NCBI GenBank assembly: GCA_017883235.1
Contig: JADGNY010000029.1
Coordinates: 1-54,989, forward strand
Direction: 5' to 3'
DNA length: 54,989 bases
DNA from: Thermoanaerobaculia bacterium
GTDB taxonomy: Bacteria; Acidobacteriota; Thermoanaerobaculia; Gp7-AA8
The position numbers and the translations under genes are program-made. Under the pieces are notes generated by a model. It was not told the origin of the DNA. It was given only the letters and a program-made list of their open reading frames with translations, and did not search any database. Position 1 is the stretch's first letter, and every line of letters begins with the position of its first letter. Below are positions 13,295-19,561 of the stretch, in pieces.

Positions 13295-15181
13295 TTACAG
13301 CACCTTCCGCGAGTCGCCAACCCGCTTCGTGACCCCTTCCCGATCCATCCACTCCAGGAGGGGGATGGCGATCTTGCGCGAGAGGCCGAAGTACTCCTTG
13401 AACTGGCCGACGTCGATCAAGTCGCCACTGCGTACGCTTATGCGCTCGCGTGCGGCAACGAGCGCGTCGCGATGAACGTAGATCCCTTCCGCCAGCCGGA
13501 CGAGGGTGCCCTGTTTGACGAGGAAACCGATCACCCCTTCGATCACCCGCGCCTTCTGGGTCCGCTCGTTGATGATCTCGGAGACCGGAGGCGGTGCCAG
13601 GCCCGCTTCGGCGAAACGCGACTCGATCATCCGCGCCAGCTCTCCTTCCGCGCCGCCCAGGCTCTTCGATCGGCCAGGAATGTCGAGGGCGTCGCCGGCA
13701 ATGGCAACGATTTTTTCGCGCGCCAGATCCTGCAGGAGGAAGTTGATCATCGCGCCATCGGCACCGCGCGGCAGCAGTTTCTGCACGAACTCGCTCTTTG
13801 GCACGTTGATCGCCATTCGGTTTTCTTCGAAGTAGGCGCGCAGAAACTCCATGGCCCGCCTTCGAAAGTCGGTGATCACGTCGTGATGAATCCACCGGCG
13901 CTCGCCGCTGTCGGCAAGATGCGGCACGTTCTTCAATTCTTTCGCCAGCGTCTCGACGCGAATGCCGGTCCGCGCCTGGACCTCGTGAATGGTCAATCCG
14001 CGTAGTCCTTCGAGCTTTGCCATCAGCTCGACGCGCTCCGGCAGCGTTCCGCCGGCGAGCGTATCGAGCAATTCGCCGCGCGTGTTGCGGCTCAGCTTCG
14101 GCAAGTGCGCGTCGAGGATCACGCCGCCACCGACCGTGAGGGCGGGTGAGTAGCGGCGGATGACGAAACGATCGCCGGCAACGGCGACCACCGGCGATTC
14201 GAGGCGCACCTGAATGTATGCGCTCGATCCCGGTTTCAGCTCCGGGGTCCGGTCGACGAATCGAATGCTGCCGAGGAGCTCGGCCGAGAGGTGATGGAAA
14301 CGAATGCGCGTCTGTTCCTTGAGCGGCTTCGCGTCCGCCAGCAGATCCAGGCGCGCCGTGATGACCTGCGACTGCCGGAGAGTATTCGGTGTGACCAGTT
14401 GCTGTCCGCGTTGGAGCTGATCCAGATCGATGTCGGGCAGGTTGACCGAGGTCCTCTCGCCTGCTGATGCGTAGTCGCGCGCTTCGCCGTGGACCTGAAT
14501 GTTGCGCGCGCGGCTGCGTTTGCCGCCTGGCAGCACCTCGATGTCCGTATCGACGTTCAGGCGTCCCGCGTAGGTCGTCCCTGTGACCACGGAACCGAAG
14601 CCCTTCATCGTGAAGACGCGATCGATCGGGAGCCGGAAGGTGCGCGTCGTGGCATCTCGGTCGCCGGCTTCGGCGACCGAGGCCAGGATGGCGTGGCGCA
14701 AATCATCCAGTCCCGCTCCCGTTACGCTGCTGACCGGCACGATCGGCTTTCCGGCCAGAAAACTCCCCGCCACCATCTCTTCGATCTCGAGCCGGACGAG
14801 ATCGAGAATGTCGTCCTCGACCAGATCGCGCTTCGTGACGGCGACGACTCCCGTTCGGATGTCGAGCAGCCTGCAGATAGCGAAGTGTTCGCGCGTTTGC
14901 GGCTTGATCGACTCGTCGGCAGCAACGACGAGGAGCGCGCTATCGATCCCTCCGACGCCGGCCAGCATGTTCTTGACGAAACGTTCGTGGCCGGGGACAT
15001 CGATGAATCCGATCTGGTAGTCGTCGGTGAACCAGCTGGCGAATCCGAGGTCGATCGTGATTCCCCGTCGTTTCTCCTCAGGGAGGCGATCGGTATCGAC
15101 GCCGGTGAGAGCGCGGACGAGCGCCGTTTTGCCGTGGTCGATGTGTCCTGCAGTTCCGACGACCCTCTTTTTACGAGACAT
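13295..15181 (-). CDS. selB: selenocysteine-specific elongation factor SelB
   Basis: SelB carries selenocysteinyl-tRNA to UGA codons marked by a SECIS hairpin. The 628-residue protein has the EF-Tu-like GTPase domain (G1 AGHIDHGKT at 11-19, RRGITIDLGFA, DVPGHERF, TKRDLV), two beta-barrel domains, and a C-terminal half with winged-helix repeats (about 380-628, including GDLIDVGQFKEYFGLSRKIA and LLEWMDREGVTKRVGD), which in SelB bind the SECIS RNA. The ATG at 15181 gives MSRKKRVVGTAGHIDHGKT; longer in-frame starts are not needed. selA, selD and tRNA-Sec genes are not in this window. A candidate selenoprotein lies at 17106-17588. Confidence 0.96.
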   Translation of the reverse strand: MSRKKRVVGTAGHIDHGKTALVRALTGVDTDRLPEEKRRGITIDLGFASWFTDDYQIGFIDVPGHERFVKNMLAGVGGIDSALLVVAADESIKPQTREHFAICRLLDIRTGVVAVTKRDLVEDDILDLVRLEIEEMVAGSFLAGKPIVPVSSVTGAGLDDLRHAILASVAEAGDRDATTRTFRLPIDRVFTMKGFGSVVTGTTYAGRLNVDTDIEVLPGGKRSRARNIQVHGEARDYASAGERTSVNLPDIDLDQLQRGQQLVTPNTLRQSQVITARLDLLADAKPLKEQTRIRFHHLSAELLGSIRFVDRTPELKPGSSAYIQVRLESPVVAVAGDRFVIRRYSPALTVGGGVILDAHLPKLSRNTRGELLDTLAGGTLPERVELMAKLEGLRGLTIHEVQARTGIRVETLAKELKNVPHLADSGERRWIHHDVITDFRRRAMEFLRAYFEENRMAINVPKSEFVQKLLPRGADGAMINFLLQDLAREKIVAIAGDALDIPGRSKSLGGAEGELARMIESRFAEAGLAPPPVSEIINERTQKARVIEGVIGFLVKQGTLVRLAEGIYVHRDALVAARERISVRSGDLIDVGQFKEYFGLSRKIAIPLLEWMDREGVTKRVGDSRKVL

Positions 15182-15274
15182 GGGTCCGCGAGTGTACCCG
15201 AGGGGGTGGGCCGGCACCGTATCGGCATAGAGTCTTGCCTGGATCGAAACCTTGAGCGTGTCTGAAACGTAGAA

Positions 15275-15309: not shown

Positions 15310-15604
15310 CGTTCCCAAACTGATGGTTATCTCTCAGCAGTTCAGCAAGTTGTCACGTTGCTGTTACCATGAGAAAAGTTTCACAAGGTCGTGAGATAAT
15401 GCAGCCAGTCGTTAGAAATTGAGGGTTTACTGGATGATGTGGGGGCGGATTAGCTTTCTGTTTCAACAGCCCGCCTCTAGTTACACCGCTTGAATTCTTC
15501 TTCGAATCTTACCGATCCAGCAATTCACTCCACCCAAGCGTTCGCACCCACCCCCATCCAGTAGATTTTGCCGGCCCCGTCGAAAGACGGGGCCGGATTT
15601 TTTT
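15310..15604 (+). ncRNA. candidate structured RNA of about 295 nt, family unknown
   Basis: The 450-bp gap between selB and holB has no credible protein frame. It contains a promoter-like sequence, nested inverted repeats and a strong terminator, all on the plus strand. ATGGT (15323-15327) / ACCAT (15366-15370) encloses CAGCAA (15343-15348) / TTGCTG (15358-15363). TTATCTC (15327-15333) can instead pair with GAGATAA (15393-15399). CTGGATG (15430-15436) pairs with CATCCAG (15555-15561), closing a domain that includes GGGGCGG/CCGCCTC. I found no signature of RNase P RNA, tmRNA, 4.5S RNA or tRNA-Sec. A 6S-like RNA is possible but unproven. Confidence 0.5.
15571..15604 (+). terminator. Rho-independent terminator of the 15.3 kb transcript
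   Basis: CCGGCCCCGTC (15571-15581), a GAAA tetraloop, GACGGGGCCGG (15586-15596), then A and seven T. This is a very strong plus-strand terminator. No plus-strand protein gene lies upstream of it for 2.3 kb, so it most likely ends a non-coding RNA. Confidence 0.92.
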
Positions 15605-15634
15605 GTAACCCGGTTACGCAGCGACGCTCACCGC

Positions 15635-17105: not shown

Positions 17106-17588
17106 CTATTTCTTCGCGGCAGTTTCGATCGGCAGGTGTGCTTCGTTCCAGCCGTTCCAGCCGCCGAGGAGAGCGGCTGTGTTCTTGATTCCGTGAGCAT
17201 TGAGGTCCAGCACCGCACGGGCGCTTGTGTGCTCACTCTGTCAAGCACAGTAGGTAATGATGAACGTCTTCGGCGGGATCTCCCGCAGGCGGGTCAGGAT
17301 GTCACCAAGAGGGATGTCGATCGCTCCCTTGATGTGTCCCTGGTCGTATTGGTCCTTACCTCGTACATCGACGTAAACGGCCTTCTTCTCTTTGACGAGC
17401 TTGATCGCTTCCTCGCGGGTGATCCGGCGCGCTGATTCGAGCGGCGCTTGTGCTGTCGGGATTGGGGTCGCCTGCGTGACCTGCGGCGACGTTTGCATTC
17501 CCGGCGGCACTGCCGACTTCATCTGTGCGTTGGCCAGACCCGTTGCGAGAAAGCCAACCACGGCTGTTGCGGCTAAGAGATGACGCAT
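17106..17588 (-). CDS. secreted rhodanese-like selenoprotein (UGA decoded as Sec)
   Basis: Rhodaneses move sulfane sulfur through an active-site Cys. Here a signal peptide (MRHLLAATAVVGFLATGLANA) is followed by a proline/threonine linker and a rhodanese domain: ITREEAIKLVKEKKAVYVDVR, DQGHIKGAIDIPLG, TFIITYCA. The frame then meets TGA at 17243-17241 and continues without a break as QSEHTSARAVLDLNAHGIKN, then TAALLGGWNGWNEA, to a TAG at 17108-17106. The continuation is clearly rhodanese: the S-AR helix and the ALLGGW motif. Relatives commonly carry Cys in the TGA position (YCACP-E type loop). I therefore read residue 116 as selenocysteine, next to Cys114 in a C-A-U motif, giving 160 residues. 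SelB is encoded 2 kb away. AAGGAGG precedes the ATG at 17588. A point mutation of a Cys codon is the alternative. Confidence 0.85.
17209..17233 (-). promoter_or_regulatory. candidate SECIS hairpin after the UGA
   Basis: Starting ten bases from the U of the UGA, AGCAC (17233-17229) can pair with GTGCT (17213-17209). An inner GCG/TGC stem closes a CCCG loop. Bacterial SECIS elements lie directly downstream of UGA within the coding region, and their loop sits roughly 16-37 nt after it, so spacing is suitable. The loop does not clearly show the conserved G near its 5' side, so the exact fold needs calculation. Confidence 0.4.
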
Positions 17589-17691
17589 GAATGGCAAGCC
17601 TCCTTTTGAACTCGATTCGAAAACCGGCCGAAAGCCTAGCATGTTCCGTACGGCGCAACTCCTGGTCAATCCCTCCGTACAATTCATCATC

Positions 17692-18072
17692 ATGAGAGAC
17701 CACATTCGCATACTCGGTTGGTGTTTCATCGTCTACAGCGCCATCATCGTCCTGGTCGGATTTGGGATCGGCAGCATCGTCATGTTCGGCGGCGCCATCT
17801 CGGGCGATCACGAGGCGATATTCATCACCAGCGCGGTCGGAGCGGCCATTGCCTGCTTCCTCATCGTCATTTCGCTCCCCGGGATGCTGGCTGGCATCGG
17901 TCTGCTGAAGCTGCGGCCATGGGGGCGTATCGTCGCCATCATCGTCGGCGTGCTTCACATCCTGAGCTTCCCGCTTGGGACGGCTCTCGGCGTTTACACG
18001 CTCTGGGTTCTGCTCAATGTGGAGACCGAGGCGCTGTTTCGTGGGCAGCAACAGGTCGCGGTAGCGGTGTAG
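17692..18072 (+). CDS. small membrane protein of unknown function
   Basis: The 126-residue protein has three or four hydrophobic segments: about residues 6-32 (ILGWCFIVYSAIIVLVGFGI), 44-68, 75-95 and 97-112. A short charged tail follows. ATG 17692 begins MRDHIRILGWCF; the open frame extends 35 codons upstream but would overlap the start of the divergent rhodanese gene. I recognise no specific family. It is divergent from the rhodanese gene and converges on the cytochrome gene, which ends only 2 bp away. Confidence 0.7.
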   Translation: MRDHIRILGWCFIVYSAIIVLVGFGIGSIVMFGGAISGDHEAIFITSAVGAAIACFLIVISLPGMLAGIGLLKLRPWGRIVAIIVGVLHILSFPLGTALGVYTLWVLLNVETEALFRGQQQVAVAV

Positions 18073-18074
18073 CG

Positions 18075-18427
<353 letters not shown>

Positions 18428-18431
<4 letters not shown>

Positions 18432-19561
18432 GCAGTCACCTCGACGTCGACGAAGTGCCAGGAGTTCTGAAGATATCCGCTCTGATTCCACGTCGCCTCG
18501 CGCGGTTGCACGTTTCCGCGGCTATCCGTCGCACGCGCGCAAAGACGCACGGTGCCTGAGCGCGAGGGCGTCCAGTGATGCGACCAAAGTCGCCAGGCAT
18601 ACGGGTCGTGACGCGGATCGAGCGACGTCTCCTGCCACGTCGCGCCGTCATCGTCGCTGATCTCGACTTTGGCGATGTCGGGCGCGCCGGAGAATGCGAA
18701 GCCGCGGATCTCGCAGGCATGTTTTGCTCTCGCTTTCGCGGGCGCGGTGGTGATGTTCGATTTCACGAACAACTCGGTCACCGGCGCCATCTCCTCCGGC
18801 TTGAACGCCACCCCGGGTGCGCCGGGCGTCAACGGATAGCGATACGCCGTCTCCATGTAAAAGCCCTTCTGCGCCTCCGCTTGCGGCGAGAGGCGGACGA
18901 GCCATTTCATCCAGTGATCGCCGGCCCAGCCCGGGACGATGAGACGGAGCGGCGCTCCGTGAGCGACCGGCAGCGGCTCACCGTTCATGGCAAAAGCGAG
19001 GATGCCGTCGGCAAGCACCTTCTCCAGCTCGACGCTGCGATGAAACGGGGGAACCTTCCCCGGCGGATCGTCGCTGCCGAATACGTGGAGATGTTTCGCT
19101 GACGGTTTCACGCCCGCGTGCTCGAGAACGTCGCGTACGCGCACCCCCGTCCAACGCGAATTGCCGACAGCCCCATAGCGCCACTGCACTCCCGGCAGGG
19201 GCGGAGAATAGAGTCCGCGCCCGTTCCCGGCGCACTGCAGAACGCACGTCGCTTCCGCGTGCGGGAGTTTTTTCAGCTCGGAAAGTGTAATGTCTCCCGA
19301 ACGGTCGACTTCGCCGTCGATCGTCAGTCTCCACTTCTTCGGGTTGGGCGTGCGCGGGATCCAGTGACTGCGGACGAAGAAAAGCTCGTTCGGGGTCACA
19401 TACTCGGTCAGTAGCGCAAGCGGTGTCTCCGCATTCACCGCATAGCCATTCATCTGCAGCATCGATTCACGGGCGCGAGGGGCCACGGCCTTTTGCGCCA
19501 CGAGCAACGGTGCAGCAGCGAGGAGAAGAAAACGTCTTCGATCGATCTCGTCGAACGGCAT
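18428..19561 (-). CDS. sulfite oxidase-family molybdoenzyme, SorA-like
   Basis: The 377-residue enzyme belongs to the sulfite oxidase family, with an oxidoreductase molybdopterin-binding domain and a C-terminal Mo-co dimerisation domain. It should oxidise sulfite to sulfate in the periplasm. Visible features are a twin-arginine signal (DRRRFLLLAAAPLL), Arg64 and His66 in FVRSHWIP, and the Mo-ligand cysteine Cys110 in VLQCAGNGR. The C-terminal domain includes IRGFAFSGAPDIAKVEIS and ends near HFVDVEVTA. It is followed directly by the cytochrome subunit. Close relatives can also act on other substrates, so SorA is the best but not the only reading. Confidence 0.9.

Follow-up and report, generated by a model that had tools for sequence, protein, structure and literature searches.

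The window, i.e. the whole stretch of 54,989 nucleotides analysed here, carries on its minus strand a rhodanese gene with an in-frame TGA, and this UGA, codon 116 of the gene, is almost certainly decoded as selenocysteine (Sec); the in silico support for this is very good. The reading that best explains all observations, and which we consider very probable, is a full-length single-domain rhodanese with a predicted location outside the cytoplasm, in which UGA 116 would be decoded as Sec by means of SelB, tRNA-Sec and a bSECIS hairpin. The host genome (6.9 Mb in 246 contigs) belongs to the Acidobacteriota. The gene comprises the following features:

17106..17588, minus strand: putative secreted Sec rhodanese of 160 residues with Sec116; Pfam Rhodanese match across the TGA, TGA-containing orthologues
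17526..17588, minus strand: putative N-terminal export signal, MRHLLAATAVVGFLATGLANA, seen in the sequence; the leaders of the orthologues are hydrophobic
17247..17249, minus strand: codon of Cys114, the catalytic Cys, with which the active-site loop of the rhodanese begins, unchanged in all 18 homologues of the alignment
17241..17243, minus strand: in-frame TGA, read as Sec116; TGA in 11 of 11 orthologues, TGC in 7 of 7 sister paralogues
17106..17108, minus strand: true stop codon TAG, from the translation

With TGA translated as U, the frame yields 160 residues followed by TAG, with the catalytic Cys at residue 114 and U at residue 116. Along the protein, a hydrophobic leader and a linker precede a single rhodanese domain, which includes the TYCA motif, the TGA and sequence in the 44 codons between TGA and TAG. 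The first-pass annotation had described a TGA at 17243-17241 directly after TYCA, an S-AR helix and an ALLGGW motif past it and a TAG 45 codons further on. The translation bears out each of these: the helix reads S122-A123-R124, ALLGGW is present and TAG is the 45th codon past the UGA. The Pfam Rhodanese profile (PF00581) is continuous over the TGA, matching residues 58-149 with 62.4 bits, above the gathering score of 22.2. The usual rhodanese loop is CxxGxR/S. In the aligned family of the window protein the loop is C-x-U/C-x-x-E, of which C, U/C and E are all invariant. Lipoprotein-like leaders were observed in several members outside this family, and judged from the leaders an extracytoplasmic location seems to be general among CxU rhodaneses.

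Orthologues were identified in 11 of the 18 genomes of the family (own genome included), the other ten being 53-81% identical to the window protein, and the Acidobacteria gp7 record QHVX01000060.1 carries an orthologue. All 11 orthologues contain TGA at exactly the same codon. A Cys had been expected in related proteins at this column, and homologues indeed have U or C there, with TGC in all seven paralogues of a sister clade. In the tree, these seven Cys copies form one supported clade (97/89) nested in a clade whose other members have Sec, as would be expected if a duplication had preceded a single Sec-to-Cys change. Sec and Cys copies are located in tandem in G011 (L060 8306-9232) and G006 (L062 3332-4309). 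At each of L072 and L107 (G090 and G172), two rhodanese copies lie in tandem and both contain TGA. Lack of conservation past the UGA had been set beforehand as a ground for abandoning the Sec reading; the homologues are conserved there, with a dN/dS of 0.22-0.38, as low as before the UGA (0.06-0.45). An in-frame UGA within conserved coding sequence and Cys in homologues, the marks by which bacterial selenoproteins are recognised, are thus both present.

Downstream of the UGA, a hairpin is situated within the coding sequence:

17209..17225, minus strand: putative bSECIS-type hairpin AGCGCC-CGUGC-GGUGCU, from its fit to the model and synonymous sites frozen in TGA genes only

It consists of a 6 bp stem and a 5 nt loop whose second base is G, has -8.7 kcal/mol when folded in isolation, and starts 15 nt past the UGA, its apical loop 21 nt past the UGA. 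The published bSECIS model describes an upper stem of 4-16 bp, a loop of 3-9 nt with G among the first two positions, a distance of 16-37 nt from the UGA and an MFE <= -7.5 kcal/mol (PMC13188914); the window hairpin agrees with it on every count. In the TGA clade that includes the window gene (clade A), the normalised codon entropy of the hairpin codons is 0.19 versus 0.51 elsewhere (permutation P 0.0009), and in TGA clade B it is 0.00 versus 0.59 (permutation P ~1e-5), whereas the Cys clade has no dip at these codons (0.65 versus 0.46 elsewhere). Stem pairs are kept in 86.9% of cells, compared to 27-47% when the stem is slid. Pair covariation revealed no two-sided compensatory changes in the stem, and when folded alone, the UGA region does not exceed shuffled sequences in stability (z -0.67 and +0.55), due to which the structural claim is a limited one. 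An Rfam search over the hairpin gave no match. A covariance model of the hairpin, run over the whole genome, strongly matched only the three TGA rhodaneses described below, all of which belonged to its training set (E 8e-15 to 1.5e-10; next match 0.015). It is the frozen synonymous sites and the fit to the model, rather than folding or covariation, that argue for a SECIS element.

The window also encodes a component of the decoding machinery:

13295..15217, minus strand: selB, Sec-specific elongation factor; TIGR00475 with 353 bits (cut-off 242), Pfam GTP_EFTU, SelB barrel, SelB-wing_2 and wing_3

The selB product combines GTPase domains with winged helices at its C-terminus. A search of the host genome for selA, selD and tRNA-Sec, whose absence the first-pass annotation had named as a refutation, recovered all three, so that selA, selB, selD and selC occur together; the tRNA-Sec has the anticodon UCA, and selD contains an in-frame TGA at the usual N-terminal active site, i.e. 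is itself Sec-containing. The Sec reading had originally been drawn from conserved coding, the Cys column and a complete selB about 2 kb away. The former two stand. The selB gene is indeed complete and 1.9 kb away, but its proximity was rejected as evidence, since selB is near the rhodanese in no other genome examined; furthermore, a strong terminator-like hairpin is located between selB and holB.

The intergenic region of selB and holB (15350-15606, plus strand) resembles a structured non-coding RNA gene: TTGTCA/GATAAT is reminiscent of a promoter, TTTACTGGATG...CATCCAGTA forms a long closing stem, and a strong terminator is present. Its folding is much better than that of shuffled sequences (z -5.7), similar DNA is present in 14 of the 18 genomes of the family, and an Rfam search with it gave no match. 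Possibly it represents a candidate 6S-like RNA.

Among the 10 Pfam rhodanese matches in the host genome, exactly three contain a stop, each a single TGA, and in all three the TGA occupies the same slot two residues past the catalytic Cys:

TYCAU: the window rhodanese
TYCTU: membrane-anchored protein on contig C236
LYCTU: DedA-rhodanese fusion on contig C24 (L070 10457-11389), ~1 kb from selD

In the last of these, a DedA-family membrane protein is fused to the TGA-containing CxU rhodanese, and a small MoaD-like frame is situated between the fusion and selD.

On the level of the phylum, matches were observed in 50 of 396 Acidobacteriota genomes. According to a hand count, the 60 matches comprise 40 with exactly one TGA (in 36 genomes), 19 without a stop and a single one flagged with TAA. 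The latter, L090 (G367:C8:134994-135335), has the motif CxC, and its frame is open around the motif. In 21 sequences from the phylum loci read, the TGA occupies the CxU slot, and most of these have a similar hairpin signature. All 36 genomes with a TGA match possess selA, compared to 252 of 396 overall (hypergeometric 3e-8, relatedness not corrected). G242 and G204, which lack selA, have TGT and TGC, respectively, at the position, and their genus has TGA in most matches.

Two other interpretations of the UGA have to be considered. It is very improbable that the UGA is a genuine stop, be it in a nonsense pseudogene, through a sequencing error or at the end of a 115-residue product ending just past the catalytic Cys. 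Of the 27 long frames in the window, 13 end in UGA, more than in any other stop. The window is G+C-rich, and a tail of 44 open codons is in itself nothing unusual there: 5 of the 13 long TGA-ending frames have more than 44 open codons past the stop. On the sequences compared, it is the homology, rather than the length of the tail, that exceeds chance. A sequencing error is implausible because the same TGA occurs in 11 genomes, and its identity across proteins of 53-81% identity, the purifying selection on the tail, the Cys of the paralogues at this column and the SECIS codons frozen in TGA genes only likewise speak against a stop. Moreover, truncation would remove the entire C-terminal portion of the rhodanese domain. 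That the UGA is read as another amino acid, through a reassigned code or leaky readthrough via a normal tRNA, has a negligible probability: ordinary genes in the same window end in UGA, the other rhodaneses of the host genome have no in-frame stop, TGA at the CxU position is found solely in selA-bearing genomes, and UGA alternates with Cys, not with Trp or Gly.

Considering the genomic neighbourhood, SorA/SorB-like genes are located 0.5-2 kb from the window rhodanese:

18428..19561, minus strand: SorA/SorT-like molybdopterin sulfite dehydrogenase; SorA 287 bits, below the cut-off of 600; Pfam Oxidored_molyb and Mo-co_dimer
18075..18431, minus strand: SorB-like c-type cytochrome; SorB 45 bits, below the cut-off of 93

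A sulfite dehydrogenase beside the rhodanese had been pointed out before, which is correct for the window. As a family trait this linkage was rejected: SorAB-like genes otherwise accompany only the G007 and G014 orthologues, G015 has a weak and more distant SorA-like match, and no such genes were found in the stretches read near the orthologues of G013, G002, G011, G012, G006, and G010. No genomic neighbour of the rhodanese is conserved across the family. The SorAB-like sulfite dehydrogenase may be a local partner, not a family-defining one. A small membrane-protein-like frame at 17587-18072 (plus strand), divergent from the rhodanese, adjoins it in G007, G008, and G015 as well; a Pfam search with this frame gave no match.

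Everything beyond Sec insertion we infer. Outside the cytoplasm, Cys114 would accept sulfane sulfur from persulfide, polysulfide or thiosulfate, and the selenolate of Sec116 would attack and resolve the Cys114 persulfide. Sulfide would be released under formation of a Cys114-Sec116 selenosulfide, which a thiol reductant would reset. With such a cycle, which we put forward tentatively as a quite conceivable one, the protein would not be a classical cyanide:thiosulfate rhodanese but a sulfane-sulfur reductase boosted by selenium. The acidic Glu of the loop speaks against thiosulfate being the main substrate. An AlphaFold model from two sequences (pLDDT 55) was too poor to judge the Cys114-Sec116 geometry. 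Literature searches found nothing on a selenosulfide mechanism in rhodaneses and no clear lead on a rhodanese with SorA.

Alternatively, the rhodanese fold may serve as a mere scaffold of a Sec protein without sulfur transfer, namely a thiol-disulfide oxidoreductase or peroxidase that acts outside the cytoplasm and uses CxU as redox pair. We regard this as possible, if somewhat doubtful: the CxUxxE loop departs from the usual one, the Cys forms retain CxC and with it a redox-capable pair, the protein appears to be exported, and Sec proteins of known function are mostly redox enzymes (PMC9312934), but neither the catalytic Cys nor the rhodanese domain is disrupted, and a sulfite dehydrogenase adjoins the rhodanese in its own genus. 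The same neighbourhood in the window, in G007 and G014 and, more distantly, in G015 would suit a thiosulfate sulfurtransferase supplying sulfite to the SorAB sulfite dehydrogenase; given the six orthologues in whose surroundings, as far as read, SorAB was not found, and the acidic loop residue, this function is unlikely. Returning to the sulfane-sulfur reductase reading, one may speculate that the CxU rhodaneses of the Acidobacteriota constitute an exported Se-dependent system of their own for sulfane-sulfur reduction, with 2-3 paralogues per genome and Sec/Cys twins kept so that the cell swaps to the Cys enzyme when Se is short, a scenario to which we assign a low probability.

The evidence for Sec is unusually complete, and a conserved version of the protein recurs across a whole bacterial phylum. 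Acidobacteriota, which are abundant in soil, would make wide use of exported Sec rhodaneses, and standard gene callers would end such proteins at the UGA. Such proteins are known from bioinformatics alone; the Sec/Cys twins, some of them in tandem, and the Cys congeners of selA-lacking genomes offer natural pairs for asking what Sec buys in a rhodanese.

As the first-pass annotation had noted, Sec-containing rhodaneses have been reported before: CxU rhodanese selenoproteins are catalogued as rhodanese-like form 3 (PMC13188914) and as form 2 of COG0607 (PMC9312934). Forms 1, 2, and 4 of the former catalogue share the PF00581 domain with Sec, but have the motif UxxS/UxxG (PMC13188914), whereas the window protein is of the CxU type and keeps the catalytic Cys. 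A rhodanese domain with Sec is also common to NCBIfam NF045694 TsoB, a rhodanese/DsbD fusion-like selenoprotein (UxxxxU) for which a literature search found nothing; this model of a fusion spans 572 positions with two Sec, and the window protein reaches only 20.8 bits with it. The thiosulfate sulfurtransferases GlpE and PspE resemble the window protein in their single rhodanese domain and catalytic loop Cys (31-33 bits), but are devoid of Sec; the loop of the window protein is C-x-U-x-x-E. In NCBIfam, the window protein, the second copy in its own genome and the remaining CxU relatives tested all match best to NF041203 rhodanese_LYCAU, a "rhodanese-related (seleno)protein" that corresponds to rhodanese-like form 3; they share with it the rhodanese domain, the catalytic Cys, Sec two residues on and the C-x-U/C motif. 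The window protein scores 75.9 bits against the curated cut-off of 115, and the Acidobacteriota CxU proteins tested all range from 65 to 104 bits. Because its best match scores under this cut-off, the window protein is, as far as sequence comparison goes, a divergent relative of the already catalogued CxU rhodaneses, and the case for its Sec is solid across the family.
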